This document shows, one piece after another, positions 44,833 to 64,000 of a stretch of DNA of 64,000 nt. Numbering within the stretch: the first letter of the stretch is position 1; every line of letters begins with the position of its first letter. A program made the translations under genes and the position numbers. This DNA is from an uncultured Porphyromonadaceae bacterium (GTDB lineage Bacteria; Bacteroidota; Bacteroidia; Bacteroidales; Muribaculaceae), in assembly GCA_947643665.1 (NCBI GenBank), contig CANRWW010000009.1:1-64000 (forward strand). Direction: 5' to 3'. The notes under the pieces were generated by a model, which did no database searches, was not told the DNA's origin, and saw nothing but the letters and a program-made list of their open reading frames with translations.

Positions 44833-45579
44833 ATGATGAACGAAACCGGCAAAGCTACCAGACAAGTGCCGTCGCATGTGGCGATAATCATGGACGGCAA
44901 TGGCCGTTGGGCTCAGGCTCGTGGGCTTGACCGTTCCCAAGGGCACGTGGAGGGAGTGAACACCGTGCGCCGCATAACAGAGGTGGCGTCTGAAATGGGG
45001 GTGAAATATCTTACCCTCTATGCTTTCTCTATGGAAAACTGGAACCGTCCGAAAGATGAAGTTGACGCCCTGATGCACCTTATAGGCATCGCCATAGAGC
45101 GTGAAACCCCAGACTTGATTAAAAATAATGTGCGCCTTACTATGATCGGAGATGTGGAGCGTATGCCTTCTGAAGCGTTGGACCGGCTACGGGGGTGCAT
45201 AGCCCGCACATCGCATTGCACAGGCCTGAATCTGAATCTGGCATTGAGCTATTCGGCCAGATGGGAGATTGCAGATGCTGCCCGGCGCATAGCTTACGAT
45301 GCATTGGCGGGGAAAATAGATGCTGCAGAAATCAACGAGGCGACGGTAAGCAGTTATCTTACGACAGCCTCAATGCCGGATCCCGATTTGCTAATCCGTA
45401 CAGGCGGGGATTTGCGGATCAGCAACTTCCTGTTGTGGCAGATTGCCTATGCGGAGATATATGTTACTCCCACATATTGGCCGGATTTTACAAAAGATGC
45501 TTTCCGGGAGGCACTTGCGCAGTTCGGCAAGCGTGAACGTCGCTTCGGACTTACCGGTGAGCAGATACGCGCCATATGA
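44833..45579 (+). CDS. uppS: Undecaprenyl diphosphate synthase (isoprenyl transferase)
   Basis: 248 residues. The cis-prenyltransferase fold is complete: HVAIIMDGNGRWAQARG with the catalytic Asp21, TLYAFSMENWNRP, LNLALSYSARWEI and RTGGDLRISNFLLWQIAYAE. The product is the C55 carrier lipid for peptidoglycan, O-antigen and capsule. Start could be the ATG at 44833 or 44836. The stop overlaps an ATG of the bamA frame, but that ATG is probably not the real bamA start. Confidence 0.96.
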   Translation: MMNETGKATRQVPSHVAIIMDGNGRWAQARGLDRSQGHVEGVNTVRRITEVASEMGVKYLTLYAFSMENWNRPKDEVDALMHLIGIAIERETPDLIKNNVRLTMIGDVERMPSEALDRLRGCIARTSHCTGLNLNLALSYSARWEIADAARRIAYDALAGKIDAAEINEATVSSYLTTASMPDPDLLIRTGGDLRISNFLLWQIAYAEIYVTPTYWPDFTKDAFREALAQFGKRERRFGLTGEQIRAI

Positions 45580-45650
45580 CAAATATTCTTTCTCTGTTAT
45601 CTGAATCTCTCTCGTTCATTATGCTGAAATTTACGACACGTTTTTACGTT

Positions 45651-48275: not shown

Positions 48276-48373
48276 TCCGGCATTGCAGGTGGCTTCAGGG
48301 AGGCCATTTAAACCTTTTGGTTTCTGAAACGTCTATAATGATATAGACATTAATAATTTAAGATTTGCTTAAA

Positions 48374-48889
48374 ATGAAAAAAATCATATTTTCGTTTCTC
48401 CTGTTTATAGGAATTGCGTTTGCAGGTTCGGCTCAGAAGTTCGCCCTTGTGGATATGGAGTACATACTCAAGAATGTACCGTCATATGAAATGGCCAATG
48501 AGCAGTTGAATCAGCTCTCACAGCGTTGGCAAAAAGAGGTTGAGGCGGTGAGCAAAGAGGCAGACAACATGTATAAACAGTATCTGGCCGATAAAGTGTT
48601 CCTGACCGAAGAGCAGGTGAAAAAACGGGAGAGTGAGATTGTGGCAAAAGAACAGGAGGCGACAGAACTGCGTTACAAATATTTCGGTCCGGAAGGGGAG
48701 CTTTATAAAAAGCGTCAGACACTTATGAAGCCCATCCAGGACGATGTGTACAATGCTGTAAAAAAACTTTCCGAGGAGCGCGGCTACCAGGCGATATTTG
48801 ACCGTGCGTCCTCTGCCAATATCATATACGCGTCGCCGCGTATTGATATAAGTAATGAAGTCCTTTCCAAATTAGGATACAGCAACTGA
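48374..48889 (+). CDS. OmpH/Skp-like periplasmic chaperone, first copy
   Basis: 171 residues from ATG 48374. A TTG nine bases earlier is in frame. Signal peptide (1-20, ending GSAQ). The Skp-like body FALVDMEYILKNVPSYEMAN is followed by a long charged coiled coil (about 45-130). The family holds unfolded outer-membrane proteins in the periplasm and passes them to BamA, whose gene is just upstream. A second copy follows 84 bp later. Confidence 0.9.
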   Translation: MKKIIFSFLLFIGIAFAGSAQKFALVDMEYILKNVPSYEMANEQLNQLSQRWQKEVEAVSKEADNMYKQYLADKVFLTEEQVKKRESEIVAKEQEATELRYKYFGPEGELYKKRQTLMKPIQDDVYNAVKKLSEERGYQAIFDRASSANIIYASPRIDISNEVLSKLGYSN

Positions 48890-48972
48890 CCCCTCATGTG
48901 GCGCGATACAGTCGGAGGCGGTTTCTGACATTAGGAATGAAATAATTTAATATCAAAAACATAACCACAGTA

Positions 48973-49500
48973 ATGATTAAAAAAATTCTTTTGGCCCTCG
49001 TAATGGTACTTCCTATGTGTGTATGGGCCCAGGCTCCTAAGTTCGGTATTGTAGATGTGGATAATATCATTCCTCAGATGCCGGAATTTGTAGAGGCTCA
49101 GAACAAGCTCAGCGAGGCATCAAAGACTTATGAGAGTGAATACGGCAAAATCAACGATGAGCTACAGAAGAAGTATGCCGAGTTTCAGGAGTTGGAAAAA
49201 GATGCTACCACTCTCCAGTCTATAAAGGAACGCCGTATGCAGGATATCCAGGAACTTGACAAGAAAGCGCAACAGTTTGCCCAGACTGCCCAGCAGGATC
49301 TCCAGCGTCAGCAGGCACAGCTTATGCAGCCTATTCAAGAAAAAGTGATGACTGCCATCAAGAGTGTAGGTACTGAAAACGGTTTCACCATGATTTTCCC
49401 ATTGGGTGCGGCTGCTTATACGGCCACTGACGTGCAGGATGTCACTCCTCTGGTAAAAGCAAAACTTGGTGTGAAGGATCAGGCTCCACAGAATCCGTAA
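48973..49500 (+). CDS. OmpH/Skp-like periplasmic chaperone, second copy
   Basis: 175 residues. Signal peptide (1-19, ending VWAQ). KFGIVDVDNIIPQMPEFVEA parallels the opening of its neighbour, then a long Gln/Glu/Lys coiled coil with QQDLQRQQAQLMQPIQEKVM. It is shorter in the coiled-coil region than the first copy and richer in Gln. Two adjacent copies are common in Bacteroidales and could form mixed trimers. A terminator follows at 49522. Confidence 0.9.
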   Translation: MIKKILLALVMVLPMCVWAQAPKFGIVDVDNIIPQMPEFVEAQNKLSEASKTYESEYGKINDELQKKYAEFQELEKDATTLQSIKERRMQDIQELDKKAQQFAQTAQQDLQRQQAQLMQPIQEKVMTAIKSVGTENGFTMIFPLGAAAYTATDVQDVTPLVKAKLGVKDQAPQNP

Positions 49501-49521
49501 ATTATAAATTGACAATACCAT

Positions 49522-49556
49522 CGGGAGGCTCCTATTTCAGGGTAGCCTCCCGTTTT
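49522..49556 (+). terminator. Terminator after the ompH pair
   Basis: CGGGAGGCT (49522-49530) pairs with AGCCTCCCG (49544-49552), followed by TTTT. It closes the uppS-bamA-ompH transcript. Confidence 0.85.
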
Positions 49557-49603
49557 CTGTGTCACCTGTTGTTACAGGTTTCCAATTAAACATAATAAAG
49601 ACT

Positions 49604-50056
49604 ATGGCTGATAATTTTCTTGAGAGACGGATGGAAGATCTGAAAGAGGGCAAACCCTATAGAAAAGGGCATTCTGTTTCCCTCTTTAAAAGAGCGTTCG
49701 TGCTGTGCGGAACAAGGGAAGTTACAGAGAGGGAAGTGCTGCGTTTGCGTAGTGAAGGATGGCGTGTAGCATTTGCAAGTACCGACCTGGATTTCGGAAA
49801 GATGCTGGCCCAGACGTCCGGCTCGCAGTTTCACCCGGTAAGTATATGTGATTTTGACGGTCTGGAAAGAAGTTTAAGGCTCATCTGGCGCGCATGGAGG
49901 GGGCTTGATATTGTAAGGGCAGATATACCGGAGGGGTGGGCTGAGGAAGATTACCGCGATAATATAAACAGATTGGTGGTGGAAGTTAGAGGAAGCCAGC
50001 CTGTTGTTTGCGATGACGGTACATGTATCGAAGTGGTCGCATCATATGGTGAATGA
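49604..50056 (+). CDS. Small uncharacterised protein with a Rossmann-like pattern
   Basis: 150 residues from ATG 49604. A GTG at 49559 is in frame but lies in the terminator flank. The segment VLRLRSEGWRVAFASTDLDF, with SICDFDG and GLDIVRADIPEGW, resembles the strand-turn-helix order of a short-chain dehydrogenase N-terminus, but GxxxGxG and the YxxxK site are missing. It may be a degenerate SDR or a different alpha/beta protein. No signal peptide. It stands alone between two terminator-like hairpins, just upstream of the nuo operon. Confidence 0.6.
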   Translation: MADNFLERRMEDLKEGKPYRKGHSVSLFKRAFVLCGTREVTEREVLRLRSEGWRVAFASTDLDFGKMLAQTSGSQFHPVSICDFDGLERSLRLIWRAWRGLDIVRADIPEGWAEEDYRDNINRLVVEVRGSQPVVCDDGTCIEVVASYGE

Positions 50057-50140
50057 TTTTCAGTATGCGGTTTCTTTATCGGATATGAGACTTTGCTGCC
50101 TATGTAGGGTTGTTTTAACAAGACTGGTGACAACAATAAG

Positions 50141-50164
50141 GCCATTTTGAGTGGTTAAAATGGC
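50141..50164 (+). terminator. Hairpin after the small unknown gene
   Basis: GCCATTTT (50141-50148) pairs exactly with AAAATGGC (50157-50164), with an 8-nt loop. It is a possible terminator before the nuo promoter. The T tract after it is short. Confidence 0.45.
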
Positions 50165-50185
50165 TTATAATTCAAAAAAAAACCT

Positions 50186-50193
50186 TATCTTTG
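50186..50193 (+). promoter_or_regulatory. -7 promoter element of the nuo-atp operon
   Basis: TATCTTTG is a perfect TAnnTTTG box, about 135 bp upstream of nuoA. A TTTG at the expected -33 distance is missing. This is the best promoter candidate for the whole nuo-atp-nuo unit. Confidence 0.55.
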
Positions 50194-50212
50194 CCCTCAA
50201 ATTTGAGAGGGC
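50193..50212 (+). promoter_or_regulatory. Leader hairpin next to the nuo transcription start
   Basis: GCCCTC (50193-50198... via loop AAATTTGA) pairs with GAGGGC (50207-50212). The stem lies right at or after the predicted start of transcription, so it would cap the 5' end of the mRNA and may protect it from decay. Confidence 0.4.
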
Positions 50213-50327
50213 GTCGTCTGTGTGGTATTGTCCATGCAGTTGGTCAAATGTCGTGTTTTCTGCCAATGCATTGACTTATAGGATGATTTGTGGCGTTCTC
50301 ATCTAACAAACGATTATTCGTAACATT

Positions 50328-50705
50328 ATGATATCATTAGGAATTTTTGGTATTGACAATGCAGTGATGGCCATAACGGCGCTACTCACTGGCGCCGGGC
50401 TTGTGGCGTTGGCCATGTGGCTTGCGGGGCTTATTTCACCCCGTTCGTTCAACCCTCAAAAAGGGGAGGCTTATGAGTGTGGTATTCCTACCCGCGGTGT
50501 CTCTATGACCCGTTTCCATGTAGGATATTATCTCTTTGCCATTCTCTTTCTGATGTTTGATGTAGAAACAGTTTTTCTATTTCCATGGGCAGTATGCCTC
50601 CGTTCTCTCGGTGGCGCGGGTGTCGCATGTGTTGCTGTGTTTTTTGCCATCTTAGTGCTCGGGCTCGTCTACGCCTGGCGGAAAGGAGCTCTTGAATGGA
50701 AATGA
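50328..50705 (+). CDS. nuoA: NADH-quinone oxidoreductase subunit A
   Basis: 125 residues with three membrane helices (about 10-35, 65-88, 95-117). The conserved loop FNPQKGEAYECGIPTRG (about 42-58) contains the family Cys/Glu/Gly set, and LFLMFDVETVFLFPWA is the second signature. NuoA sits at the junction of the membrane arm and the quinone site of complex I. It is the first gene of the operon and overlaps nuoB. Confidence 0.95.
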   Translation: MISLGIFGIDNAVMAITALLTGAGLVALAMWLAGLISPRSFNPQKGEAYECGIPTRGVSMTRFHVGYYLFAILFLMFDVETVFLFPWAVCLRSLGGAGVACVAVFFAILVLGLVYAWRKGALEWK

Positions 50706-51307
50706 AAGAGATTACAACAAAATCCATGCCCTATGATGCATGGAAAGACAATGAGTATATTGAAAAGCTCGTGAATGAGCTTCGTGAGAGTGGTACAAAC
50801 GTGATTGTGGGCTCTCTTGACAAACTTATCAACTGGGGGCGCTCCAACTCAATCTGGCCTTTGACTTTTGCCACCAGTTGCTGTGGCATAGAGTTCGTGT
50901 CGCTTGGAGCTGCACGTTTTGATATGGCACGTTTTGGATGGGAAGTGGCCCGTTCATCCCCCCGCCAGGCCGACTTCATGATGGTGGCTGGAACTATTGT
51001 GAACCGTATGGTGCCCGTGTTCCGCCGTCTGTATGACCAGCTTGCCGAGCCGAAATATGTCATCGCATGCGGCAGTTGTGCAATATCCGGCGGTCCTTTC
51101 CGCAAATCATATCATGTGGCAAAAGGTATAGAAGACATTGTGCCGGTTGATGTGTTTGTGCCAGGCTGTCCTCCCCGTCCTGAAGCCATGATATATGGAA
51201 TAATGCAGCTTTCGCGTAAGATGAAAGTAGAGCGTTTCTTCGGTGGTGTAAACCGCAAGATGAACCGCAAACAATATCTTGCAGAACATCCTGAAGAAAA
51301 CTGTTAA
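50696..51307 (+). CDS. nuoB: NADH-quinone oxidoreductase subunit B
   Basis: 203 residues. The N2 iron-sulphur cluster ligands are visible: the tandem Cys62-Cys63 (TSCCGIEF), a Cys in ACGSCAISGG and the Cys in VPGCPPRPEA. Arg-rich motif FDMARFGWEVARSSPRQADF is present. It passes electrons to the quinone. The start overlaps the nuoA stop by ten bases; the ATG at 50702 (ATGA overlap) is equally plausible. It has a 30-residue C-terminal extension rich in basic residues. Confidence 0.95.
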   Translation: MEMKEITTKSMPYDAWKDNEYIEKLVNELRESGTNVIVGSLDKLINWGRSNSIWPLTFATSCCGIEFVSLGAARFDMARFGWEVARSSPRQADFMMVAGTIVNRMVPVFRRLYDQLAEPKYVIACGSCAISGGPFRKSYHVAKGIEDIVPVDVFVPGCPPRPEAMIYGIMQLSRKMKVERFFGGVNRKMNRKQYLAEHPEENC

Positions 51308-51326
51308 CGGTCCGCTCCGGCCGTGA

Positions 51327-51355
51327 CAGCGCCCGGATGGCAATCCGGAGCGCTG
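51327..51355 (+). other. Strong hairpin between nuoB and nuoCD
   Basis: CAGCGCCCGGAT (51327-51338) pairs with ATCCGGAGCGCTG (51343-51355), a GC-rich stem with a single bulged base and a 4-nt loop, in a 143-bp gap. There is no T tract, so it is more likely an RNA-processing or stability element than a terminator. Confidence 0.55.
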
Positions 51356-51450
51356 CGACATGGAGCCAATTCAACATCTAAAGGCAGGTAGGGACGCCAA
51401 TCACCCCACGATGCCGCTTGTAAAAGGAATAAAGTAGTAAAGCAAAACAT

Positions 51451-53073
51451 ATGGCTGAATTGCAGAACAAGATCTCCAGACAGTTCCCCGGAGCTACTTT
51501 CGAGGATGGTGAGATTCTGCTCATCAACATCGCCGATGCGCAACTTCATGATTTAATAAAGACATTGCGCGACGAGCATGGGTTCGATTACCTCGTTACG
51601 ATCGTAGGTATGGACTGGAAGACATCAATGGGATGTGTGTATTATCTGGCTGACACAGGCATGAGCCGTTTTGTGTCGGTAAAGACACAGACCGAGGATC
51701 GTGACAACCCGATGCTCCACAGTATTGCCGACCTTTATCGTATTGCCGGCATACTTGAACGTGAGGTATATGATTTTTATGGGATTGTATTTATAAACAA
51801 TCCGGATATGCGTCGCCTGTTCCTGAACATAGACTGGAAAGGTTACCCCCTGCGTAAGGATTATGATGTGAACGATGCCGCTAATGCACCCAGCATTGAA
51901 AATGAGCGCCAGAGCGACCTTACACAGACTTGGGTGGAACTTCCCGACGGGAAAGTGGAGCGTCGTGAGGAAATTGTATTCAAACCGGAGGATTTTGTTG
52001 TCAATATCGGTCCACAGCACCCTGCCACGCATGGTGTGCTCCGTTTCCGTACGGCTGTAGACGGCGAGACTATAAAGAAAATCGATGTCTACATGGGTTA
52101 CATACACAGGGGAGTAGAGAAACTGTGCGAGGATTTATCTTATATGCAGACACTCCATTTTATGGATCGTCTGGATTATTTCTCGGCACATAATTATCAT
52201 CATGGCCTTTGTCTTTGCATAGAAAAAGCAGCAGGGATAGAGGTGCCCCAGCGTGCAGTGGTGGTACGTACGCTCATGGATGAGCTTTCCCGTATAGCAT
52301 CGCATTGTCTCTTTATAGGTACATTCTGCATGGACCTTGGTGCAACGACTATGCTGTTCTATACATTGCGTGTGCGTGAACAGGTCCTTGATATAATGGA
52401 AAAGACCTGCGGCGCCCGCATGACGTTCAATTATGACTGCATCGGCGGTGTCATGGCCGATATACATCCTGATTTTGTAAAGGATGTAAAAGAATTACTC
52501 GCTACTCTTGAAAAGAATGTTGCTGAGTATAACAAACTGTTTACCGGTAATGTGATAGCCAAGAACCGACTTGAGGGTGTAGGTATCCTTAATCACGATG
52601 ATGCGGTATCGTACGCGATAACAGGGCCTTCCGGACGTGCTTCCGGCTGGGCATGCGATGTGCGTAAACTTGTTCCGTATGCGGCATATGACAAAGTTGA
52701 ATTCGAGCAGGTGGTGCGTACCGAAGGCGATTCAATGGCGCGTTTCAAAAACCGTGTTGACGAGATCCTTCAGAGCAAGCATATCATAGAGCAACTTATT
52801 GACAATATACCGGAAGGAGATTTTCTTGCCAAAGTGCCCAAAGTGCTTAAATTGCCTGTCGGACATTGGTTCCAGGTTGTAGAAGGGTGCCGCGGTGTAT
52901 TTGGTGTTTATATCGAAAGCGACGGTTCAAACAAACCGTACCGTTTGAAGTTGGCAACTCCGAGCCTTAACTCTGCCGCTGTAGTGGATCATATAACTCG
53001 CGGACAGAAGATCGCCGACCTTATAACTATTGGCGGATCAATGGATTACATCGTGCCTGACATGGATCGTTGA
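51451..53073 (+). CDS. nuoCD: NADH-quinone oxidoreductase subunit CD (fused)
   Basis: 540 residues. The NuoC part (about 1-165) has RIAGILEREVYDFYGI and GYPLRKDYD. The NuoD part starts with NIGPQHPATHGVLRF (about residue 184) and has GYIHRGVEKL and YFSAHNYHHGLC. The conserved quinone-site His in QHPATH and the Tyr/Asp network are in place. The fusion is usual in Bacteroidetes. It is preceded by a strong hairpin in a 143-bp gap. Confidence 0.95.
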   Translation: MAELQNKISRQFPGATFEDGEILLINIADAQLHDLIKTLRDEHGFDYLVTIVGMDWKTSMGCVYYLADTGMSRFVSVKTQTEDRDNPMLHSIADLYRIAGILEREVYDFYGIVFINNPDMRRLFLNIDWKGYPLRKDYDVNDAANAPSIENERQSDLTQTWVELPDGKVERREEIVFKPEDFVVNIGPQHPATHGVLRFRTAVDGETIKKIDVYMGYIHRGVEKLCEDLSYMQTLHFMDRLDYFSAHNYHHGLCLCIEKAAGIEVPQRAVVVRTLMDELSRIASHCLFIGTFCMDLGATTMLFYTLRVREQVLDIMEKTCGARMTFNYDCIGGVMADIHPDFVKDVKELLATLEKNVAEYNKLFTGNVIAKNRLEGVGILNHDDAVSYAITGPSGRASGWACDVRKLVPYAAYDKVEFEQVVRTEGDSMARFKNRVDEILQSKHIIEQLIDNIPEGDFLAKVPKVLKLPVGHWFQVVEGCRGVFGVYIESDGSNKPYRLKLATPSLNSAAVVDHITRGQKIADLITIGGSMDYIVPDMDR

Positions 53074-53153
53074 CGATTGCGGATCAAGTCAAAGCTGTTA
53101 TTACAATTTAGATTATACTGAAAAAGAATTATTCGACGACAGAACATCACGTT

Positions 53154-54254
53154 ATGGATAATTATACAATAGACAATTTCCACTCTTTTACCGAGTGGTT
53201 CGACCATCTGCTCAACGGGTGCATGCCCGGTTGGCTCGCCACGACGATTGAGTGTTTGCTTGTAGGAGTGGGACTGTTATTGGTCTATGCCCTCCTGGCG
53301 CTCTTCTATATCCTTTATGAGCGCAAGATATGTGCATATTTCCAGTGCCGCCTCGGACCGAACCGTGTGGGTCCATGGGGATTGCTTCAGAGTATGGCTG
53401 ATGCCGTGAAGATGCTGATAAAAGAGCTTATAGAATTGAAGCATATAGATAAATTCCTGTTTGCACTGGCTCCTTATCTGGTAATTATCGCTTCGATGAT
53501 AGGTTTTGCGGTTCTGCCATGGGGTAATGGTCTTCAGATAATAGACTTCAACATAGGTATTTTCTTCCTGATAGCCTGTTCATCAATCGGTGTGCTTGGA
53601 ATCCTGCTTGCCGGGTGGTCATCAAACAACAAGTTTACTCTTATCGGCGCTCTTCGTTCCGGTGCCCAAATGGTAAGTTATGAACTGTCTGTAGGACTTT
53701 CTATTCTTACAATGGTGGCTTTCGCCGGTACGATGGATGTCGTGAAAATTGTAGAAGCCCAGGCTGACCACTGGTTCATTTTTTCTGCACATATACCCGC
53801 AATCATAGCTTTTGTGATCTATATGATTGCCGGTACCGCAGAAACAAACCGTGGCCCGTTTGACCTTCCTGAAGCTGAAAGCGAGCTTACCGCCGGTTAT
53901 CATACGGAATATTCCGGTATCCATTTTGGTTTCTTCTATCTGGCCGAATATCTTAACTTGTTTATAGTGTCAGGTGTGGCGACTTTGATGTTCTTTGGCG
54001 GTTGGATGCCTTTCCGTGTTGCCGGATGGGACGGTTTCAATGAGATAATGGGATATATACCATCGGTTGTGTGGTTCCTGATGAAGTCTTTTGCACTTTC
54101 GTTTGTCATAATCTGGTTCAAATGGACATATCCCCGTCTCCGAATAGACCAGTTGCTGTCACTTGAATGGAAGTATCTTCTTCCTATAAATCTTGTGAAT
54201 CTGGTGCTGATGGTAATAATTATCTGGCAGGGTTGGTATTTCGGCAATTTTTAA
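53154..54254 (+). CDS. nuoH: NADH-quinone oxidoreductase subunit H
   Basis: 366 residues with eight membrane helices. The quinone-channel loop shows [20 protein letters not shown] (about 63-82), and the acidic loop [20 protein letters not shown] lies near residue 245. It connects the N2 cluster to the proton-pumping arm. It is the last nuo gene before the atp cluster; 88 bp separate it from atpD. Confidence 0.96.
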
Positions 54255-54327
54255 AACCAGACATCTCCTTGCAGGGTATCAATTGCCTGTATATTGGAAA
54301 TATAGATAAAATAAAGAACACTCATAA

Positions 54328-55848
<1,521 letters not shown>

Positions 55849-55884
55849 TGCACTTACTAATATCATTTGCATCCAATCACACTT

Positions 55885-56118
55885 ATGACACTTAAAATCA
55901 TATCTGCCGAAAAGATACTGTTTGAAGGTGAGGCTTCCTCTGTCACGCTTCCCGGCGAGATGGGACAGTTTACTGTCCTGCCACATCATGCATCCCTTGT
56001 TTCCACGCTTGTCAGTGGAAAGATTTTATATAAATCCGGAACCGGGGAGCACTCTGTGGATGTGGCTGGCGGCATAGCCGATGTTGACAACGACGTTGTG
56101 TCGGTTTGTGTGTATTAA
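55885..56118 (+). CDS. atpC: F1Fo ATP synthase subunit epsilon, short form
   Basis: 77 residues from ATG 55885. A TTG 18 bases upstream is in frame. LKIISAEKILFEGEASSVTL, then GEMGQFTVLPHHASLVSTL identify the epsilon N-terminal beta-sandwich. The usual C-terminal helical hairpin (residues about 90-135 in E. coli) is absent, so inhibition of ATP hydrolysis by that hairpin cannot occur. Short epsilons are frequent in Bacteroidetes. It lies 36 bp after atpD. Confidence 0.9.
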   Translation: MTLKIISAEKILFEGEASSVTLPGEMGQFTVLPHHASLVSTLVSGKILYKSGTGEHSVDVAGGIADVDNDVVSVCVY

Positions 56119-56159
56119 TATTTTAAATCTGGTAACACTTACCATCCGTAACCTAAGAA

Positions 56160-57341
56160 ATGAAGCGTATTCTATTGATATTGGCTCTTATGGTCTCATT
56201 TTCGGCGTCGCTCTGTGCCTCGTCGGGAAATCTGGAAGAGAGTCTTGATAACAAACTCACCGATCAGCTTGAAAATGCCGAGGATGAGGCTCATCAGGAG
56301 AAGCCCGATCTTAAGGAGATCATTTTTGAGCATCTCGGTGACGGATATGGCTGGGAAGTGCCTTTCAACCATCATAAGCGTATTCCTCTTCCTGTGATCG
56401 TATGGGGCAAGGATGGCCTGCATGTGTTTTCTTCTTCACGTGTGACCCACGGGGATTCTTTCGTGGATGGCAATGCTGTCTTTAAGATCGCGACCGAGGG
56501 GGATTACAAAGGGAAAATAGTAGAGATAGTAGACGGCAAAGAATATAAGCCATGGGATTTTTCCATTACGAAAAATGTATGTGCCATATTCATCGCCTGC
56601 ATTATTGTGCTGTGGCTACTTATAGACCTTGCCAGATGGCATAAGAAGAATCCTTTTAAGGCTCCGCGGAAGACACGCGGTGCAGTGGAAAGCCTGGTCA
56701 CTTTCATATATGACGGGGTGATAAAGTCAACTCTGGGAGAAAAAGCGCCAAGATTCGCGCCCTATCTGCTTACGGTATTTTTCTTCATATTCTTTATGAA
56801 TCTTCTGGGGCTGATAGTTGTGTTCCCCGGAGGTGCCAATGTGACAGGTAATATCGCAGTCACTATGGTACTTGCCATAATGACATTCATTATGACCAAT
56901 TTCTTCGGCAACAAGCATTATTGGAAAGAGATCTTCTGGCCGGATGTGCCTATGTGGTTGAAGTTCCCCCTGCCTATCATGCCGGTGATTGAAATTTTCG
57001 GTATGTTTACAAAGCCGGCGGCTTTGACAGTGCGTCTGTTTGCCAATATGATGGGTGGCCATATGATAGTGCTGGTGCTGACTTTGCTGATCTTTATTTT
57101 TGGAGCCATGGGGGTTGCTGTGGCTGCGGGAACTTCCGTAGTGTCGGTAGCATTTTCGGTATTTATGCTTCTGATAGATGTGCTTGTCAGCTTTATACAG
57201 GCGTATGTATTCACGATGCTGTCCACCATATTCATTTCTCTTGCGCAAGAAGAACATCATGAGAAAGGTGAACATAACCACCCGGCGAATGATGTGAAAG
57301 GCGGGAAAGCTGTACCGGCGTCGGTGTCATCGGCAAAATGA
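56160..57341 (+). CDS. atpB: F1Fo ATP synthase subunit a
   Basis: 393 residues, longer than the typical 270. A signal peptide (1-20) and a periplasmic domain of about 120 residues precede the first membrane helix at about 140-160. The proton channel helix has the essential Arg in LTVRLFANMMGGH. The C-terminal tail is His-rich (HHEKGEHNHP). A long periplasmic N-terminus is common in Bacteroidetes. No AtpI/AtpZ gene precedes it. Confidence 0.95.
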   Translation: MKRILLILALMVSFSASLCASSGNLEESLDNKLTDQLENAEDEAHQEKPDLKEIIFEHLGDGYGWEVPFNHHKRIPLPVIVWGKDGLHVFSSSRVTHGDSFVDGNAVFKIATEGDYKGKIVEIVDGKEYKPWDFSITKNVCAIFIACIIVLWLLIDLARWHKKNPFKAPRKTRGAVESLVTFIYDGVIKSTLGEKAPRFAPYLLTVFFFIFFMNLLGLIVVFPGGANVTGNIAVTMVLAIMTFIMTNFFGNKHYWKEIFWPDVPMWLKFPLPIMPVIEIFGMFTKPAALTVRLFANMMGGHMIVLVLTLLIFIFGAMGVAVAAGTSVVSVAFSVFMLLIDVLVSFIQAYVFTMLSTIFISLAQEEHHEKGEHNHPANDVKGGKAVPASVSSAK

Positions 57342-57405
57342 TACGATATATAGTTTAGAAACAAATAACAATACAATAAATAACTCTCAAAAAACAAAAA
57401 CGACT

Positions 57406-57648
57406 ATGTTAGGATTGATTTTAGCAGCAGAAGCTCTCGTAGGTTTTGGCGCAGCTATCGGCGCGGCTATCTCGGCTATTGCAGCCGGTATCGGTATCGG
57501 TAAGATTGGTTCATCTGCCATGGAAGCTATCGCACGTCAGCCTGAAGCAGCCGGCGACATCCGTTCAAATATGATTGTGATCGCCGCTCTTGTGGAGGGT
57601 GTGGCTCTGTTCGCGGTTATTGTGGCTGTGCTTGCTTTATTTGTATGA
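57406..57648 (+). CDS. atpE: F1Fo ATP synthase subunit c
   Basis: 80 residues, two helices linked by the RQPEAAGDIRS loop. The ion-binding Glu is in ALVEGVALFA. The sodium-type residues of Ilyobacter c subunits (Gln in helix 1, Ser or Thr after the Glu) are replaced by Ile and Gly, which points to proton coupling. Forms the rotating ring. Followed by an unusual run of inverted repeats before atpF. Confidence 0.96.
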   Translation: MLGLILAAEALVGFGAAIGAAISAIAAGIGIGKIGSSAMEAIARQPEAAGDIRSNMIVIAALVEGVALFAVIVAVLALFV

Positions 57649-57654
57649 TATTTA

Positions 57655-57755
57655 AAACCGGAATGTATATGGCATCCGGTTTATAATAAAAAATACATTC
57701 CCCGGTGAAATTGGTGGCGGATGCTTTTGCATATCCGCCACCGGATATCCGGTGG
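57655..57755 (+). other. Cluster of overlapping inverted repeats between atpE and atpF
   Basis: Hairpin 1: AAACCGGA (57655-57662) with TCCGGTTT (57675-57682). A competing pair: GAATGTAT (57661-57668) with ATACATTC (57693-57700). Hairpin 2: GGTGGCGGAT (57713-57722) with ATCCGCCACC (57733-57742). Hairpin 3: CCACCGGATATCCGGTGG (57738-57755), a perfect palindrome sharing five bases with the 3' arm of hairpin 2. Hairpins 2 and 3 are mutually exclusive, as are hairpin 1 and the competing pair. The gap to atpF is 211 bp, much longer than most other gaps in the cluster. Confidence 0.65.
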
Positions 57756-57859
57756 TAGTTCATGAGAGGATACATATTTTCTCTCCATCATCAAATCGAC
57801 ATCCGCAAGGCATGGGCCTGCGGAGTGCTTAAAACAACGAATCTTTTGTTAAGACGTTT

Positions 57860-58357
57860 ATGGAACTGTTTAAAGTAGATTTCGGATTGACCATTTGGAT
57901 GTTCGTGGCTTTTGCGATCCTCCTGTTTATTTTGTGGAAATTCGCATGGCCTGCCATTCTCAAAGGTGTTGACAGTCGCGCCGATTTGATTGACAAGGGT
58001 GTGGAATATGCCCAGAATGCGAAGATCCGCCTTGACAATGCCAACGAAGAGGCCCGGCAATATGTGGCTGATGCCCGTCATCAGCAGGCTGATATAATTG
58101 CCGATGCCAATAAAATGAAAACACAGATCATTGAGGAGGCACGTGAAGAGGCGAAAAAAGAAGCGCAGAAAGTGTTGGACAGTGCAAAACTCAGCATTGA
58201 GCAAAGCCGTAAGGAAGCCGAAAAATCGCTTCGTGACGAGGTTAGCCGTTATGCCCTTGCAATTGCCGGCCAGGTTACCCGCGAACAATTGAAAGATGCA
58301 GAAGCGCAAAAACGCCTTGTCAACTCTCTTCTTGACGATATAGAAAAGAAAAACTAA
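57860..58357 (+). CDS. atpF: F1Fo ATP synthase subunit b
   Basis: 165 residues. One N-terminal membrane helix (about 10-30; LTIWMFVAFAILLFILWKFA) followed by a long charged coiled coil that forms the peripheral stalk. Single gene, no b' copy. Starts after the 211-bp structured gap and is followed 36 bp later by atpH. Confidence 0.94.
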   Translation: MELFKVDFGLTIWMFVAFAILLFILWKFAWPAILKGVDSRADLIDKGVEYAQNAKIRLDNANEEARQYVADARHQQADIIADANKMKTQIIEEAREEAKKEAQKVLDSAKLSIEQSRKEAEKSLRDEVSRYALAIAGQVTREQLKDAEAQKRLVNSLLDDIEKKN

Positions 58358-58393
58358 CTCTTTCAGCAACATTGATACTGTAGACTCACCGAT

Positions 58394-58936
58394 ATGAATG
58401 AAGGTCTGATTCCGAGACGTTATGCCAAGGCACTGCTGAAAGTCGCCGTGGAGAGACATGATGACAAGAAGCTCTATGAGATTATGCGGAGTTTGTGCGA
58501 CAGTTTTGTTGCTGCTCCTGAGCTTGAAGCTACATTGGCAAATCCTTTCATTGATTCTGAAAAGAAGATGGAGCTTCTGGCTACAGCTGCCGGTGCAGAT
58601 AAGTCTGTCTCCACGTTTTTTGACTTTTTGAAACTGTTGAAAAACAATAACCGTCTTGACATGGCTCGTGGAATAGCCCTCGCCTATGAGGATGATTATC
58701 GCGAAGCCAACGGTATATACCGGGTTGAAGTGGTGGCTGCGGCTCCGATGGACAAGACGGAGGAGGATCGTTTGAAAAAACTTATAGCAAGCCATCTCGG
58801 AGGTGGCACGATGGAATATACGTTCAAAGTGAATCCCGACCTTATCGGCGGTTTCACCGTAACCATCGGTTCTGAGAAACTTGATACCTCTGTCAAGAAC
58901 CAGCTTAAGCAGCTTCATCTGAAGTTGCTCGGTTGA
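58394..58936 (+). CDS. atpH: F1Fo ATP synthase subunit delta
   Basis: 180 residues, standard length. RRYAKALLKVAVER at the start, then NPFIDSEKKMELL, and the C-terminal TFKVNPDLIGGFTVTIGSEKLD motif are family features. It tops the F1 head and binds subunit b. A 7-bp hairpin lies in the 143-bp gap before atpA. Confidence 0.94.
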   Translation: MNEGLIPRRYAKALLKVAVERHDDKKLYEIMRSLCDSFVAAPELEATLANPFIDSEKKMELLATAAGADKSVSTFFDFLKLLKNNNRLDMARGIALAYEDDYREANGIYRVEVVAAAPMDKTEEDRLKKLIASHLGGGTMEYTFKVNPDLIGGFTVTIGSEKLDTSVKNQLKQLHLKLLG

Positions 58937-58944
58937 TATAACTC

Positions 58945-58962
58945 CTGTCAGTATCCTGACAG
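58945..58962 (+). other. Hairpin between atpH and atpA
   Basis: CTGTCAG (58945-58951) and CTGACAG (58956-58962) pair perfectly around a 4-nt loop. No T tract. It is probably an intercistronic RNA stem. Confidence 0.45.
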
Positions 58963-59079
58963 ATAATTACAATTCCGACATAGAAAAGCAAGTCTCCTCT
59001 GTAGTGAGTTATTTTTCTGCCAGAAGGGACATAATTATTAGACAAGAAACACTCTCTTACCTTATATAATCACAACAGA

Positions 59080-60654
59080 ATGATTAATCCAAGCGAGATA
59101 TCTGAAGTTTTAAAGCAACAGCTCGAGAACGTCAATAAGACAGTGGCTTTCGAGGAGGTAGGCACCGTGCTTGAGGTCGGCGACGGCGTGGCACATGTCT
59201 ATGGCCTTGACAACGTATGCGCAAACGAGCTTGTGGAGTTTGAAAACGGCGTAAAAGGTGTGGCACTCAACCTTGAAGAAAGCAACGTGGGCGTGATCCT
59301 GCTCAACGAAGTAGACAAGGTAACGGAGAACATGTCTGTGCGCCGCACCGGCGAAATCGCTTCCATTCCCGTTGGTGAGGGAGTGTTCGGCCGCGTGATC
59401 AATATCCTTGGCGAACCGATTGATGGTCGCGGTCCTATAGAAGGGAAACGCATACTTATGCCATTGGAGCGTAAAGCTCCCGGCGTTATTTTCCGTCAGC
59501 CTGTGAATCAGCCGCTGCAGACAGGCATCAAGGCAGTGGACTCCATGGTGCCTATCGGCCGTGGGCAACGTGAGCTTATAATTGGCGACCGCCAGATTGG
59601 CAAAACCGCCATCGCCATTGACACCATCATCAATCAAAAAAAGAATTTCGAAGAGGGTAAGCCTGTATATTGCATCTATGTGGCAATAGGGCAGAAGGCT
59701 TCTTCAGTGGCAGCTATAGTGGAAACTTTGCGTCAGCACGGTGCTTTGGATTACACATGCGTGGTTGCGGCAACCGCTTCCGACTCGGCTGCGATGCGTT
59801 ATTATTCACCATTTGCTGGTGTCGCTATAGGTGAGTTCATACGCGATACAGGGCGCGATGCTCTTATCGTATATGATGACTTGTCCAAACAGGCGGTCGC
59901 ATATCGCGAGATCTCACTGATCCTCAAGCGTCCTTCCGGCCGTGAGGCATATCCCGGCGATATTTTCTATCTGCATTCGCGTTTGCTTGAGCGTGCAGCC
60001 AAGATCATAAACAACCAGAAAGTGGCAGAGGCCATGAACGACCTTCCTGCAGTACTCAAACCTATGGTCAAAGGTGGCGGTTCACTTACGGCGCTTCCGA
60101 TTATCGAGACCCAGGCGGGCGACGTTTCAGCTTATATTCCTACCAATGTGATTTCAATTACGGATGGCCAGATATATCTTGAGACTGCCTTGTTCAACCG
60201 TGGTATCCGTCCTGCTATCAATGTAGGTATTTCTGTAAGCCGTGTGGGTGGTAACGCGCAGATTAAGTCTATGAAGAAAGTTGCCGGTACACTCAAGATT
60301 GATCAGGCACAGTTCCGTGAGCTTGAGTCATTCACAAAGTTCGGTGGCGATATAGATCCTGTTACGGCACGTGTGATTGACCGTGGCCGTAAGAATGAAC
60401 GTTTGCTCATTCAGCCCCAGTATAAACCTTGGGCGGTGGAAGATGAGGTTGCTGTCATATATTGCGGTGTAAACGGTTTGCTTGGAAATGTGCCTGTTGA
60501 CAAGGTTGCGGAGTTCCAGGACGCACTGTTGCAGCTTCTCCATGCCAAATATCAGGCTGATGTGCTTGATGTGATCCGTGCAGGAAAACTCACAGACGAT
60601 TGCACTGCCAAACTTACGGCTGCTGCTAATGAAGTGGCTGCGCGTTACGCTTGA
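59080..60654 (+). CDS. atpA: F1Fo ATP synthase subunit alpha
   Basis: 524 residues. [19 protein letters not shown] is the nucleotide-binding P-loop (about 170-188), and [17 protein letters not shown] the alpha signature. The non-catalytic partner of beta in F1. The C-terminus is about 15 residues longer than in E. coli. Coding sequence is contiguous and in frame. Confidence 0.97.
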
Positions 60655-60758
60655 AAACCGTTCCGGCAGGAATAGGGGAACGCAGTTGATGCTATAGCAT
60701 ACTGTATCTTGTGATATGTAAACAAAGGAACATCACCATAGATTTTAATTGACCGTAA

Positions 60759-61640
60759 ATGGCAACACTAAGAGAATTAAAAGGACGAATAGGCTCCGTG
60801 GCGTCATCGGAGAAGATCACCGGCGCCATGAAGATGATTTCGTCGGCCAAAATGCACAAGGCTGAACAGGCTTTGAAGCAGTTGAGGCCATTCCGTGACC
60901 AGATAGAAACAATAATAGCAAATCTACTGAGTTCAGACGCCGTATTTTCGTCACCGCTTATGACTGTACGTCCGGTGCAGAATATCGCTATTGTTGTATG
61001 GGGGTCTGATGACGGTCTGTGTGGTGCCTATAACGTAAACATATTCAAGCAGTTGTTGCAGGTACTCAATGGTTACCGCCAATCACTTCCGTCCGATGTG
61101 GCCATTACTGTGTTGCCAGTGGGCAGCAAGATCGCAAAAGCGGCATCCAAGATTGGGCTGCAAGGCGTAAAAGTAGAGGCTCTCTCAGGTGTTGATTCCA
61201 AAAGTACAGATTCGAAAGTGCGTGATTTCGCATGGGATCTGAGAGATGCTTTCCTAAGTGGCAGATATGACCGTGTGGAGATGCTTTATATGTCATTTAA
61301 GAGCATAAGCCGCCAGAGGGTGGAGCATCAGCAGCTTTTACCGGTGACATATGATGCATTTGCCGGCACTTTGGGTAAGGCTACTGCAAAGCCATATATT
61401 TTCGAGCCTTCTCCAGAAGTGATATTCACCCGCATCCTTCCGATGTATCTTCTTGCGATGGTGCAGGATGTGTTTACCGAGAACCGTGCAAGTGAACAGG
61501 CCGCGCGTGTCATGGCAATGCAAAGTGCCAATGACAATGCAAAGAAACTGCGTGAACAACTCAATTTGGAATATAATAAACTGCGTCAGCAGGCTATTAC
61601 AACTGAACTTCTAGACATACTGGGAGGTCAGGTAAGATAA
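60759..61640 (+). CDS. atpG: F1Fo ATP synthase subunit gamma
   Basis: 293 residues. N-terminal helix ATLRELKGRIGSVASSEKIT and C-terminal NAKKLREQLNLEYNKLRQQA form the rotor coiled coil; SDDGLCGAYNVN is the conserved middle motif. Last gene of the atp cluster, followed by a 10-bp-stem hairpin at 61642-61671 and a promoter-like box before nuoI. Confidence 0.95.
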   Translation: MATLRELKGRIGSVASSEKITGAMKMISSAKMHKAEQALKQLRPFRDQIETIIANLLSSDAVFSSPLMTVRPVQNIAIVVWGSDDGLCGAYNVNIFKQLLQVLNGYRQSLPSDVAITVLPVGSKIAKAASKIGLQGVKVEALSGVDSKSTDSKVRDFAWDLRDAFLSGRYDRVEMLYMSFKSISRQRVEHQQLLPVTYDAFAGTLGKATAKPYIFEPSPEVIFTRILPMYLLAMVQDVFTENRASEQAARVMAMQSANDNAKKLREQLNLEYNKLRQQAITTELLDILGGQVR

Positions 61641-61641
61641 A

Positions 61642-61671
61642 ACATGGCATATGGATCATCCTATGCCATGT
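61642..61671 (+). terminator. Hairpin at the atpG-nuoI boundary
   Basis: ACATGGCATA (61642-61651) pairs perfectly with TATGCCATGT (61662-61671), starting one base after the atpG stop. It has no strong T tract, so termination may be partial. Confidence 0.5.
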
Positions 61672-61686
61672 ACACAGTGAAAAAAG

Positions 61687-61694
61687 TAATTTTG
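61687..61694 (+). promoter_or_regulatory. -7 promoter element before nuoI
   Basis: TAATTTTG matches TAnnTTTG and lies about 20 bp before the nuoI ATG. The -33 position is not a clear TTTG. It could let the nuoI-L part be transcribed separately. Confidence 0.4.
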
Positions 61695-61713
61695 TACATT
61701 TTATAATATTAAA

Positions 61714-62412
61714 ATGGGTAGTGTAAAAGAATATTTTTCATCCTTAGGGAAAGGTGTCGCAAGTCTTGTAAAAGGGCTTGAAGTCACAGGCAAGGAGTTT
61801 GTCACCCCTAAGATTACAGAAAGATACCCTGAGAACCGCGACAACATGCACGTGGCCCAGCGGTTTCGTGCCACTCTAGAGTTCATATATGACGAAGAGG
61901 GGAACCACCGTTGTATAGCTTGCGGCACATGTGAGAGGAACTGTCCCAACGGTACCATATCTGTAGGTACGAAAATGATAGAGACCTGGGACGGTAAAAA
62001 GAAGAAAAAACTTGATCGTTACATCTATGACCTTGGAAGTTGCACTTTCTGCCAACTTTGCGTGACTACATGTCCTACCAATGCCATAAGGTTCAACAAC
62101 GATTTCGAACAAGCCGTCTTTACCCGTGACAAACTTGTAAAGCTGCTTAATTATCTTCCTGAAAAGCCTGAGCCGGAACCAACCCCAGAGCAGCGGGCGA
62201 AATTTGAGGAAGAGAAAAAACTAAAGGCTGAGGCTGCGAAGGCTGCCGCTACAGCGCCTGCTGTTCAGCTTGACGAGAAGGCGCTGAAAGCTATTGAAGC
62301 TGCTGCCGGTGATCCTGAGAAACAAGCCAAGTTGCGTGCTGCGTTTGAAAAGGCCGCACGTCTGAAAGCAGAGAAAGCTGCTGCCAAAAATTCAGAAGAA
62401 ACAAAAAAGTAA
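61714..62412 (+). CDS. nuoI: NADH-quinone oxidoreductase subunit I with an extended tail
   Basis: 232 residues. Two 4Fe-4S motifs are complete: CIACGTCERNCP (Cys67, 70, 73, 77) and CTFCQLCVTTCP (Cys110, 113, 116, 120). The core ends near residue 150. The remaining 80 residues are a Lys/Glu/Ala-rich low-complexity tail (PEPEPTPEQRAKFEEEKKLK, then EKALKAIEAAAG), longer than in most NuoI. It might help dock another protein where the NADH module is missing. Start of the second nuo segment. Confidence 0.94.
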   Translation: MGSVKEYFSSLGKGVASLVKGLEVTGKEFVTPKITERYPENRDNMHVAQRFRATLEFIYDEEGNHRCIACGTCERNCPNGTISVGTKMIETWDGKKKKKLDRYIYDLGSCTFCQLCVTTCPTNAIRFNNDFEQAVFTRDKLVKLLNYLPEKPEPEPTPEQRAKFEEEKKLKAEAAKAAATAPAVQLDEKALKAIEAAAGDPEKQAKLRAAFEKAARLKAEKAAAKNSEETKK

Positions 62413-62421
62413 CATAGATTT

Positions 62422-62934
62422 ATGGAATCAGTAGGAAGTATCATCGTCTACACGATAATCACTTTGGCGATTGTCGTTTGCTCGGTGCTTGCTGTCACCA
62501 CACGCAAGATTTTGCGTGCGGCCACTTACTTGCTGTTTGCCCTTTTTGCTACCGCCGCCCTCTATTTCAAACTTGATTATGAGTTTCTGGGTGCCGTGCA
62601 GATAGCGGTATACGCAGGCGGTATAGTGGTGTTGTTCGTGTTTTCGATTCTGCTCACGAGCCAACCGGGTGACAACAGTGCCAAATTAGCCTCCAAAAAG
62701 CGTGCCTTGGGTTTCATTGGAGCCCTTTCCATGCTTCTTGTCGCAGGCTATTCGCTTGTAAGCCGTGCCTCGTTCCTGACGGCAACAGCTTCAGGCGATA
62801 ATCCTGTAATGAAAGAGATCGGCACAGCACTCATGGGCACCGGCCACGGAGAGTACCTGCTCCCGTTCGAGGCTATCAGCGTGTTGCTGCTTGCATGTAT
62901 AATCGGTGGCGTAGTTATCGCCCGCAAACGATAA
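62422..62934 (+). CDS. nuoJ: NADH-quinone oxidoreductase subunit J
   Basis: 170 residues with five membrane helices (about 5-25, 30-48, 54-77, 92-112, 142-165). ATYLLFALFATAALYFKLDY and YAGGIVVLFVFSILLTSQPG are family features. Part of the proton-conducting membrane arm. Nine bp after nuoI. Confidence 0.94.
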   Translation: MESVGSIIVYTIITLAIVVCSVLAVTTRKILRAATYLLFALFATAALYFKLDYEFLGAVQIAVYAGGIVVLFVFSILLTSQPGDNSAKLASKKRALGFIGALSMLLVAGYSLVSRASFLTATASGDNPVMKEIGTALMGTGHGEYLLPFEAISVLLLACIIGGVVIARKR

Positions 62935-62952
62935 AGGAGGGATAGAAAGATC

Positions 62953-63264
62953 ATGGAACTTACAATGATTTACTACCTTATACCGAGCCTCATCATGTTT
63001 TGTTGCGGTGTATATGGGTTCATCACCCGCCGAAACATGATTGCTATCCTCATTTCGCTTGAGCTTATGCTTAATGCGGTTGACATCAATTTTGTGGTAT
63101 TCAACCGTTTCCTGTTTCCCGGTGAGATGGAGGGTATGTTTTTCACGCTGTTCGCCATAGGTCTGGCTGCGGCAGAGACGGCTCTTGCCATTGCGATTAT
63201 CATAAATGTGTTCCGCGTGTCAAATAGTATAGATGTGCGTGACGTAAATAAAATGAAACATTAA
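62953..63264 (+). CDS. nuoK: NADH-quinone oxidoreductase subunit K
   Basis: 103 residues with three helices. GFITRRNMIAILISLELMLN and GLAAAETALAIAIIINVFR contain the two conserved membrane glutamates of the proton path. An alternative start six codons in is possible. It is 15 bp before nuoL. Confidence 0.95.
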   Translation: MELTMIYYLIPSLIMFCCGVYGFITRRNMIAILISLELMLNAVDINFVVFNRFLFPGEMEGMFFTLFAIGLAAAETALAIAIIINVFRVSNSIDVRDVNKMKH

Positions 63265-63279
63265 AGCCATTGCGCCGAT

Positions 63280-64000
63280 ATGCAACCTGTCATACCAATT
63301 ATAATCCTGGCCCTGCCGCTCACCATGTTTCTGGTGCTCGGCCTTTTGGGTCACAAGATGAGCCACAGACTGGCTGGAATTCTTGGCACAGCAGGCATGG
63401 GCACCACCATGGTGCTGGCCTATATTGTGTCATTCACATATTTCTTTTCAGGCAATCCGTCGTTCATAGATGCCGATACGCACACCCGTTTGCAGGCGGT
63501 GATTTTCAACCATGACTGGTTGGCTTTCACTCCTTCGTTGGTTATCCGTCTCGGTTTTCTGCTTGATCCGATTTCCGCACTGATGCTTGTGGTGATTACG
63601 ACAATTTCGTTCATGGTCCACCTTTACAGCAACGGTTATATGCGTGACCATCATGGAGTGTGGGAAACCGGATTCCAGCGTTTCTACGCTTTCCTGTCGC
63701 TTTTCAGCTTCTCCATGCTCGGGCTTGTGGTCGCTACCAATATATTCCAGATGTATATATTCTGGGAGCTTGTGGGTGCGTCCTCATACCTGTTGATCGG
63801 TTTTTATTATACGAAACCTTCAGCAGTGTCCGCTTCCAAGAAAGCGTTTATCGTGACCCGTTTCGCCGATCTTGGTTTCCTGATCGGTATATTGATACTT
63901 TCGTTCTACACAGGAACGTTCAATTTCACAGATCTCACTTCCGTAGAGGTTTCCAACGGGGTTTACCAGATCAGCGAGAGCACGGCAAGTTCTGTAAAAA
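63280..64000 (+). CDS. nuoL: NADH-quinone oxidoreductase subunit L, 3' end outside the window
   Basis: 240 residues seen from ATG 63280. LDPISALMLVVITTISFMVH, then YIFWELVGASSYLLIGFYY and KKAFIVTRFADLGFLIGI are diagnostic of the antiporter-like NuoL; the conserved Glu of the WELVG motif and the Lys of KKAF are present. nuoM and nuoN are expected beyond the edge. Confidence 0.95.
   Translation, partial: MQPVIPIIILALPLTMFLVLGLLGHKMSHRLAGILGTAGMGTTMVLAYIVSFTYFFSGNPSFIDADTHTRLQAVIFNHDWLAFTPSLVIRLGFLLDPISALMLVVITTISFMVHLYSNGYMRDHHGVWETGFQRFYAFLSLFSFSMLGLVVATNIFQMYIFWELVGASSYLLIGFYYTKPSAVSASKKAFIVTRFADLGFLIGILILSFYTGTFNFTDLTSVEVSNGVYQISESTASSVK

Follow-up and report, generated by a model that had tools for sequence, protein, structure and literature searches.

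In a 64,000 nt stretch of DNA from an uncultured Porphyromonadaceae bacterium (GenBank assembly GCA_947643665.1, contig CANRWW010000009.1, positions 1 to 64,000; referred to here as the window), the genes of an F-type ATP synthase (atp) are located inside the locus for complex I (nuo). The row reads nuoA-B-CD-H, atpD-C-B-E-F-H-A-G and nuoI-J-K-L-M-N, which amounts to 18 genes in 18 kb on one strand. The explanation favoured here, with a rough probability of 0.66, is that these genes form an 18-gene operon that originated from one insertion in a common ancestor, has been kept and is transcribed from one promoter. A complete F1Fo ATP synthase operon would have entered the row a single time, at a position between nuoH and nuoI, in an ancestor shared by the Muribaculaceae and six other sampled families, and would then have been kept; the atp part would no longer have its usual promoter motif, and one promoter about 134 nt before nuoA would most likely transcribe both enzymes. 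The supply of a headless, presumably proton-pumping complex I would thereby be tied to that of the ATP synthase. The features of the row are as follows.

50141..50164, listed on the - strand: inverted repeat that may be a terminator, between the promoter motif and the gene upstream (match to the consensus only)
50186..50193, +: -7 promoter motif of the TAnnTTTG type, TATCTTTG, 134 nt upstream of nuoA
50328..50705, +: nuoA (PF00507)
50696..51307, +: nuoB (PF01058; NF011391 above cut-off)
51451..53073, +: nuoCD fusion (PF00329 and PF00346)
53154..54254, +: nuoH (PF00146)
54255..54342, +: junction 1, nuoH-atpD, 88 bp
54343..55848, +: atpD, beta subunit (TIGR01039, 769.9 bits)
55867..56118, +: atpC, epsilon subunit, N-domain only (PF02823; first ATG of the translation at 55885)
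56160..57341, +: atpB, a subunit (PF00119)
57406..57648, +: atpE, c subunit (PF00137)
57860..58357, +: atpF, b subunit (PF00430)
58394..58936, +: atpH, delta subunit (TIGR01145; PF00213)
59080..60654, +: atpA, alpha subunit (TIGR00962, 737.9 bits)
60759..61640, +: atpG, gamma subunit (TIGR01146; PF00231)
61641..61713, +: junction 2, atpG-nuoI, 73 bp
61714..62412, +: nuoI; its long C-terminal tail is rich in Ala, Lys and Glu (TIGR01971 below cut-off; Fer4 domains)
62422..62934, +: nuoJ (NCBIfam nuoJ models, below cut-off)
62953..63264, +: nuoK (NF004320 above cut-off)
63280..64000, +: nuoL, cut by the window end (63280-65307 on the contig)
65361-66866 on the contig, beyond the window: nuoM
66896-68362 on the contig, beyond the window: nuoN

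Gene identities were derived from open reading frame (ORF) calls and Pfam/NCBIfam profile matches, and these confirm, on the + strand, every gene named in the nuo-atp-nuo order that a preliminary description of the window had given. Its start and gene content hold, but position 64000, given there as the end of the row, is merely the window edge inside nuoL; the contig extends to 79952 bp, and the next long ORF after nuoN is on the opposite strand. All eight F1Fo ATP synthase subunits are present by profile match. Complex I is the headless 11-subunit form, consisting of NuoA, B, CD, H, I, J, K, L, M and N with C and D fused, and the term “proton pump” used in the preliminary description applies to a complex that lacks the NADH module. 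The nuoE, nuoF and nuoG genes are not in the row, and the genome beyond the row was not searched for them. The window's NuoI scored 94.3 bits against an NCBIfam cut-off of 113, and NuoJ was likewise below its cut-off; the identity of NuoI is also backed by 4Fe-4S domain matches. The window's genome (G000; G, L and f handles denote genomes, loci and families) has one nuoH match and one atpD match at E 1e-150, and the host probably belongs to the Muribaculaceae, the group named in the title of the nearest named locus, L002 (98% NuoH identity); the titles of other near loci vary.

The gene order is conserved among relatives of the window. A scan of genome contigs for NuoH relatives gave 193 loci, of which the best 80 were kept as named related loci, with titles that cover Muribaculaceae, Bacteroidales, Porphyromonadaceae and some other groups. 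These loci and the genomes sampled for the family and the order may overlap, so that the counts are not independent, and L008 and L152, which have identical nuoH, represent one genome. Among the best 80, atpD directly follows nuoH in 78, and in the remaining two, L061 and L065, the stretch ends at or just after nuoH. In a sample of 118 genomes of the family, nuoH was found in 117 and atpD in 117, with G180 having neither, and the two genes are adjacent on the same strand in 115 of the 117 genomes having both, the stretches matched being 19-179 bp apart (median 52). The sole non-adjacent genomes are cut by contig edges: in G251 a partial atpD sits beside nuoH at a contig end (L128), and in G200 atpD begins at the edge of a different contig. 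An apparent nuoH-atpD gap of 1148 bp in L147 was rejected as an artefact, since it stems from a premature stop in frame and only 61 bp separate the two matches.

The surroundings of the row are far less stable. Of the named loci, 55 extend 5 kb or more beyond nuoA on its upstream side. The six upstream neighbours seen in the window all recur in L002 and one of them in L037; the other 53 loci have none. The upstream neighbours therefore change while the gene unit stays, indicating that it is the unit that is kept and not the neighbourhood. A local rearrangement in one strain, which the preliminary description had left undecided against a lineage trait, is ruled out by the 78 related loci and 115 family genomes with the same junction. 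Just upstream of the row (49559-50056) is an ORF of 165 amino acids with no Pfam match, and similar ORFs are present in L002 and L037.

Beyond the family, the arrangement is not general for Bacteroidales. In a sample of 148 genomes of the order, 81 gave any nuoH match, which was strong (E <= 1e-120) in 59; the 22 with weaker matches, including G062, in which NuoH is split in two frames, were left out of the counts. In 12 of the 59, no more than 103 bp separate nuoH from the best listed atpD downstream of it. The two genes are not adjacent in the other 47, in line with the separate operons that the preliminary description had called usual: they are on the same contig but at least 23 kb apart in four and on different contigs in 39, and no F-type atpD is listed in a further four. 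Genes on different contigs could by themselves hide a nuoH-atpD junction at a contig end, but in the 30 best order loci, read with 1.5 kb flanks, nuoH is followed by atpD in 12 and by nuoI in 18. For independent cases outside the order, 90 genomes were sampled from the phylum, and among the matches listed nuoH adjoins atpD in G000 alone. In four f123 genomes from another class of the phylum (G340, G379, G383 and G360), nuoH and atpD are about 10-12 kb apart on opposite strands.

The 12 genomes of the order with the atp genes inside nuo (referred to as fused) belong to seven families, f1, f99, f18, f54, f80, f61 and f24, and 12 of 12 clusters fetched from these families contain all 18 genes in order, with G218 used in place of G000 and nuoN cut by the stretch end in some. 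Further fused genomes show the nuoH-atpD junction in f54 (5/5) and f24 (8/8), and the same junctions are found in two single-contig genomes, G218 (3.3 Mb, Muribaculaceae; L153) and G301 (3.44 Mb, f54; L353). A tree of rpoB was built from 80 of the 144 genomes with an rpoB match; these 80 include all 11 fused genomes having rpoB. These 11 form one clade with a Shimodaira–Hasegawa-like approximate likelihood ratio (SH-aLRT) support of 99, adjoining f3 (G002 and G110), and the fused state needs one change on this tree. The arrangement is thus an old trait of the lineage that arose once according to the rpoB tree, which covers six of the families, and this settles the question that the preliminary description had left undecided. 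For the ATP synthase the AtpD tree was used, a separate atp tree being unsafe for G083, G057, G067, G065, G012 and G025, in which atpA was not found near atpD and the wrong ORF was taken. In both the nuo tree and the AtpD tree, G080 of f80 branches first within the fused clade.

Bacteroidales promoters carry a -7 motif, TAnnTTTG. This motif was counted in the 300 nt upstream of estimated gene starts, with one locus per genome, and compared with 200 base shuffles. It is present before fused nuoA in 77 of 81 (shuffle mean 13.2, max 22) and before fused atpD in just 4 of 98 (shuffle mean 14.1, min 5), which is rarer than in any of the 200 shuffles. Unfused atpD has it in 24 of 30 (shuffle mean 5.7, max 12). 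When the count was confined to the junctions, with the last 60 bases of nuoH or atpG included, the motif was found in 2 of 90 nuoH-atpD gaps and in 4 of 70 atpG-nuoI gaps; the gaps alone, set against dinucleotide shuffles, likewise gave 2 of 90 (mean 5.5) and 4 of 70 (mean 1.5, max 4). The fused clade has therefore lost the usual motif before atpD, as would be expected with one promoter ahead of nuoA, and on these counts one promoter probably drives all 18 genes. The motif counts thus support one half of an earlier proposal, that one promoter serves both enzymes; the other half, that it sets their relative amounts, goes further than the counts do.

In the window a leader of about 130 nt (50194-50327) lies between the -7 motif and nuoA. 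The motif is 90-180 nt before nuoA in 57 of 83 loci, with differing intervening sequence, and Rfam gave 0 matches in 45000-64000, leader included. A sigma-70 scan found 39 matches versus 22.8 in shuffles and is of little use for this phylum.

Several observations weigh against the single-promoter operon. The single transcript, the fixed relative amounts and any benefit are inferred from the DNA, and conservation does not prove benefit. Before fused nuoI the motif occurs in 10 of 68, above the shuffle mean of 3.4 and equal to the maximum of 10, so that a second, weak promoter before nuoI is possible in some species. Unfused nuoA has the motif in 6 of 11 (shuffle mean 2.4, max 6). In f96, a family with an unfused but closely similar ATP synthase that is described below, the fused-like atpD has it in just 6 of 18 (shuffle mean 3.6, max 9); this atpD stands alone and must have a promoter, so the motif misses promoters. 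The other type of atpD in f96 has it in 11 of 11 (shuffle mean 2.1). As for the single origin, f99, f80 and f61 are each represented by one genome, and G080, having no rpoB match, is placed by the nuo and AtpD trees only. Finally, nuoJ is not seen after nuoI in L003 and L014; in each of them the nuoI tail contains a stretch of N, and for this reason they are not counted as real breaks.

A first alternative, although unlikely in our view, is a neutral frozen accident, in which a single insertion was kept since breaking it harms both enzymes and joint control brings no gain. Only a single origin is seen, as this would have it, and the junctions show nothing tighter than short gaps, with a median of 48 bp at both. 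It fits less well with the retention of the unit by 115 of 117 genomes when all six upstream neighbours are missing from 53 of 55 loci, and with the loss of the -7 motif before atpD. Clustering without a common transcript is a second possibility, slightly less likely still: the row would give two or three transcripts, through internal starts or cleavage, and the enzymes would be made in separate amounts. Long operons often have internal promoters, and the excess of motifs before nuoI, together with the promoters that the motif misses in f96, would agree with this. Such a reading has to contend with fused atpD, where the count is under the shuffle minimum, and with the 24 of 30 in unfused atpD.

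A third alternative arises from f96 itself (39 genomes, no completeness filter). AtpD in this family is 78-81% identical to that of the window in 19 genomes and 69-70% identical in 15, and five of the 39 have no AtpD at E 1e-150. A nuoH gene (E 1e-60) is present in 19 of the 39, which are exactly the 19 with the 78-81% AtpD; the other 20 have neither nuoH nor a fused-like AtpD at the thresholds used. In all 19 nuoH is followed by nuoI, and nuo adjoins atp in none of them. The two are on different contigs in 12 and on one contig in seven, at distances of 18 kb (G295), 23 kb (G096), 28 kb (G286), 45 kb (G291), 68 kb (G284) and more than 1 Mb (G293 and G300). In the AtpD tree, eight of the 19 fused-like sequences are sister to the fused clade (100/100), and five of the 15 of the 69-70% type lie far from this group. 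The nuo tree groups G096 with G019, then with G145 and G008, beside the fused clade, neither inside it nor as its sole sister. These relationships suggest that atp, perhaps with nuo, was transferred between f96 and the fused lineage, in either direction.

Accordingly worded, the third alternative is that nuo and this type of atp make up an energy module passed between gut Bacteroidales, with fusion as one form of it. The joint presence or absence in f96 and the split position of its two AtpD types in the tree favour such a module; the lack of adjacency in all 19 genomes and the position of f96 nuo beside, and not within, the fused clade speak against it, and we consider it as unlikely as the second. 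That the row is an assembly artefact, for which one might cite the 68 contigs of the window's genome, is refuted by the same order in single-contig G218 and G301 and in many other independent assemblies, and with it go chance and misassembly, the latter named in the preliminary description as a possible refutation.

Two further features of the row differ between lineages. The NuoI of Muribaculaceae has an Ala/Lys/Glu/Pro-rich C-terminal tail that extends 38-194 residues past the conserved core in 58 loci (from L002-L081 and L151-L153, including two with an N run and dropping those without a stop or core match), compared with 7-21 residues in nine loci of the remaining fused families and, among unfused loci, 5-28 residues in 20. 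In L006 and L152 a repeat unit of about 45 residues occurs twice within the tail. The tail might be a docking site for the electron donor, and our guess for the donor is ferredoxin or flavodoxin. The atpC-atpB gap is 396-423 bp in eight of nine unfused clusters (L243-L247, L249, L251 and L252; the nine are those with both genes mapped, f96 type left out), giving room for a small gene. It is short elsewhere, at 9 bp in L257 (G008), 8 bp in the f96 cluster L248 and a median of 7 bp in the fused clade.

The nuo-atp arrangement itself is already known in outline. For ‘Ca. Homeothermaceae’ (S24-7, now Muribaculaceae), Ormerod et al. (2016) reported an 11-subunit complex I without NuoEFG and with an F-type ATP synthase integrated in its locus, and one genome, H5, without both enzymes (PMC4936053), as is G180 here. 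The novelty implied by the preliminary description is thus reduced for the family; the portion of the 2016 report available does not describe the arrangement as general for the order and contains no other families, single origin or promoters. The headless nuo operon of B. fragilis (BF638R_0850-0841, ten genes, no nuoEFG) is alike in this respect and, in the available part of its description, has no atp genes within it; it is poorly expressed in rich medium and its deletion was without effect on colonisation (PMC7002350), while here complex I would be co-made with ATP synthase. Headless complex I is also reported, in an excerpt, for Prevotella (PMC6560451). A minor atp unit of Bacteroides and Prevotella with the order beta-epsilon-a-c-b-delta-alpha-gamma (PMC5709465) has an identical internal order but is a standalone unit, with NADH not mentioned in the text available. 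In the literature searched, part of it available as excerpts, nothing was found on the wider clade, on a single origin or on a comparison of promoters; these are added here, together with the unfused family in which nuo and fused-like atp co-occur.

The result describes a clade of gut bacteria in which a proton pump and its main proton consumer are encoded in one gene row. A broader proposition, put forward tentatively and on balance unlikely, is that headless complex I has become, in the fused clade, a housekeeping pump whose production from one promoter is obligatorily coupled to that of ATP synthase, and that nuo and this type of atp have been gained and lost together as one energy-conserving module in the fused clade and f96. 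If true, such a housekeeping role would contrast with Bacteroides, where headless complex I was weakly expressed and dispensable in the published tests, as far as the available text reports them (PMC7002350). A clade that apparently does not express headless complex I separately from ATP synthase would provide a natural test of the role of this complex in Bacteroidales, and the joint occurrence of the two gene sets in f96 points in the same direction.
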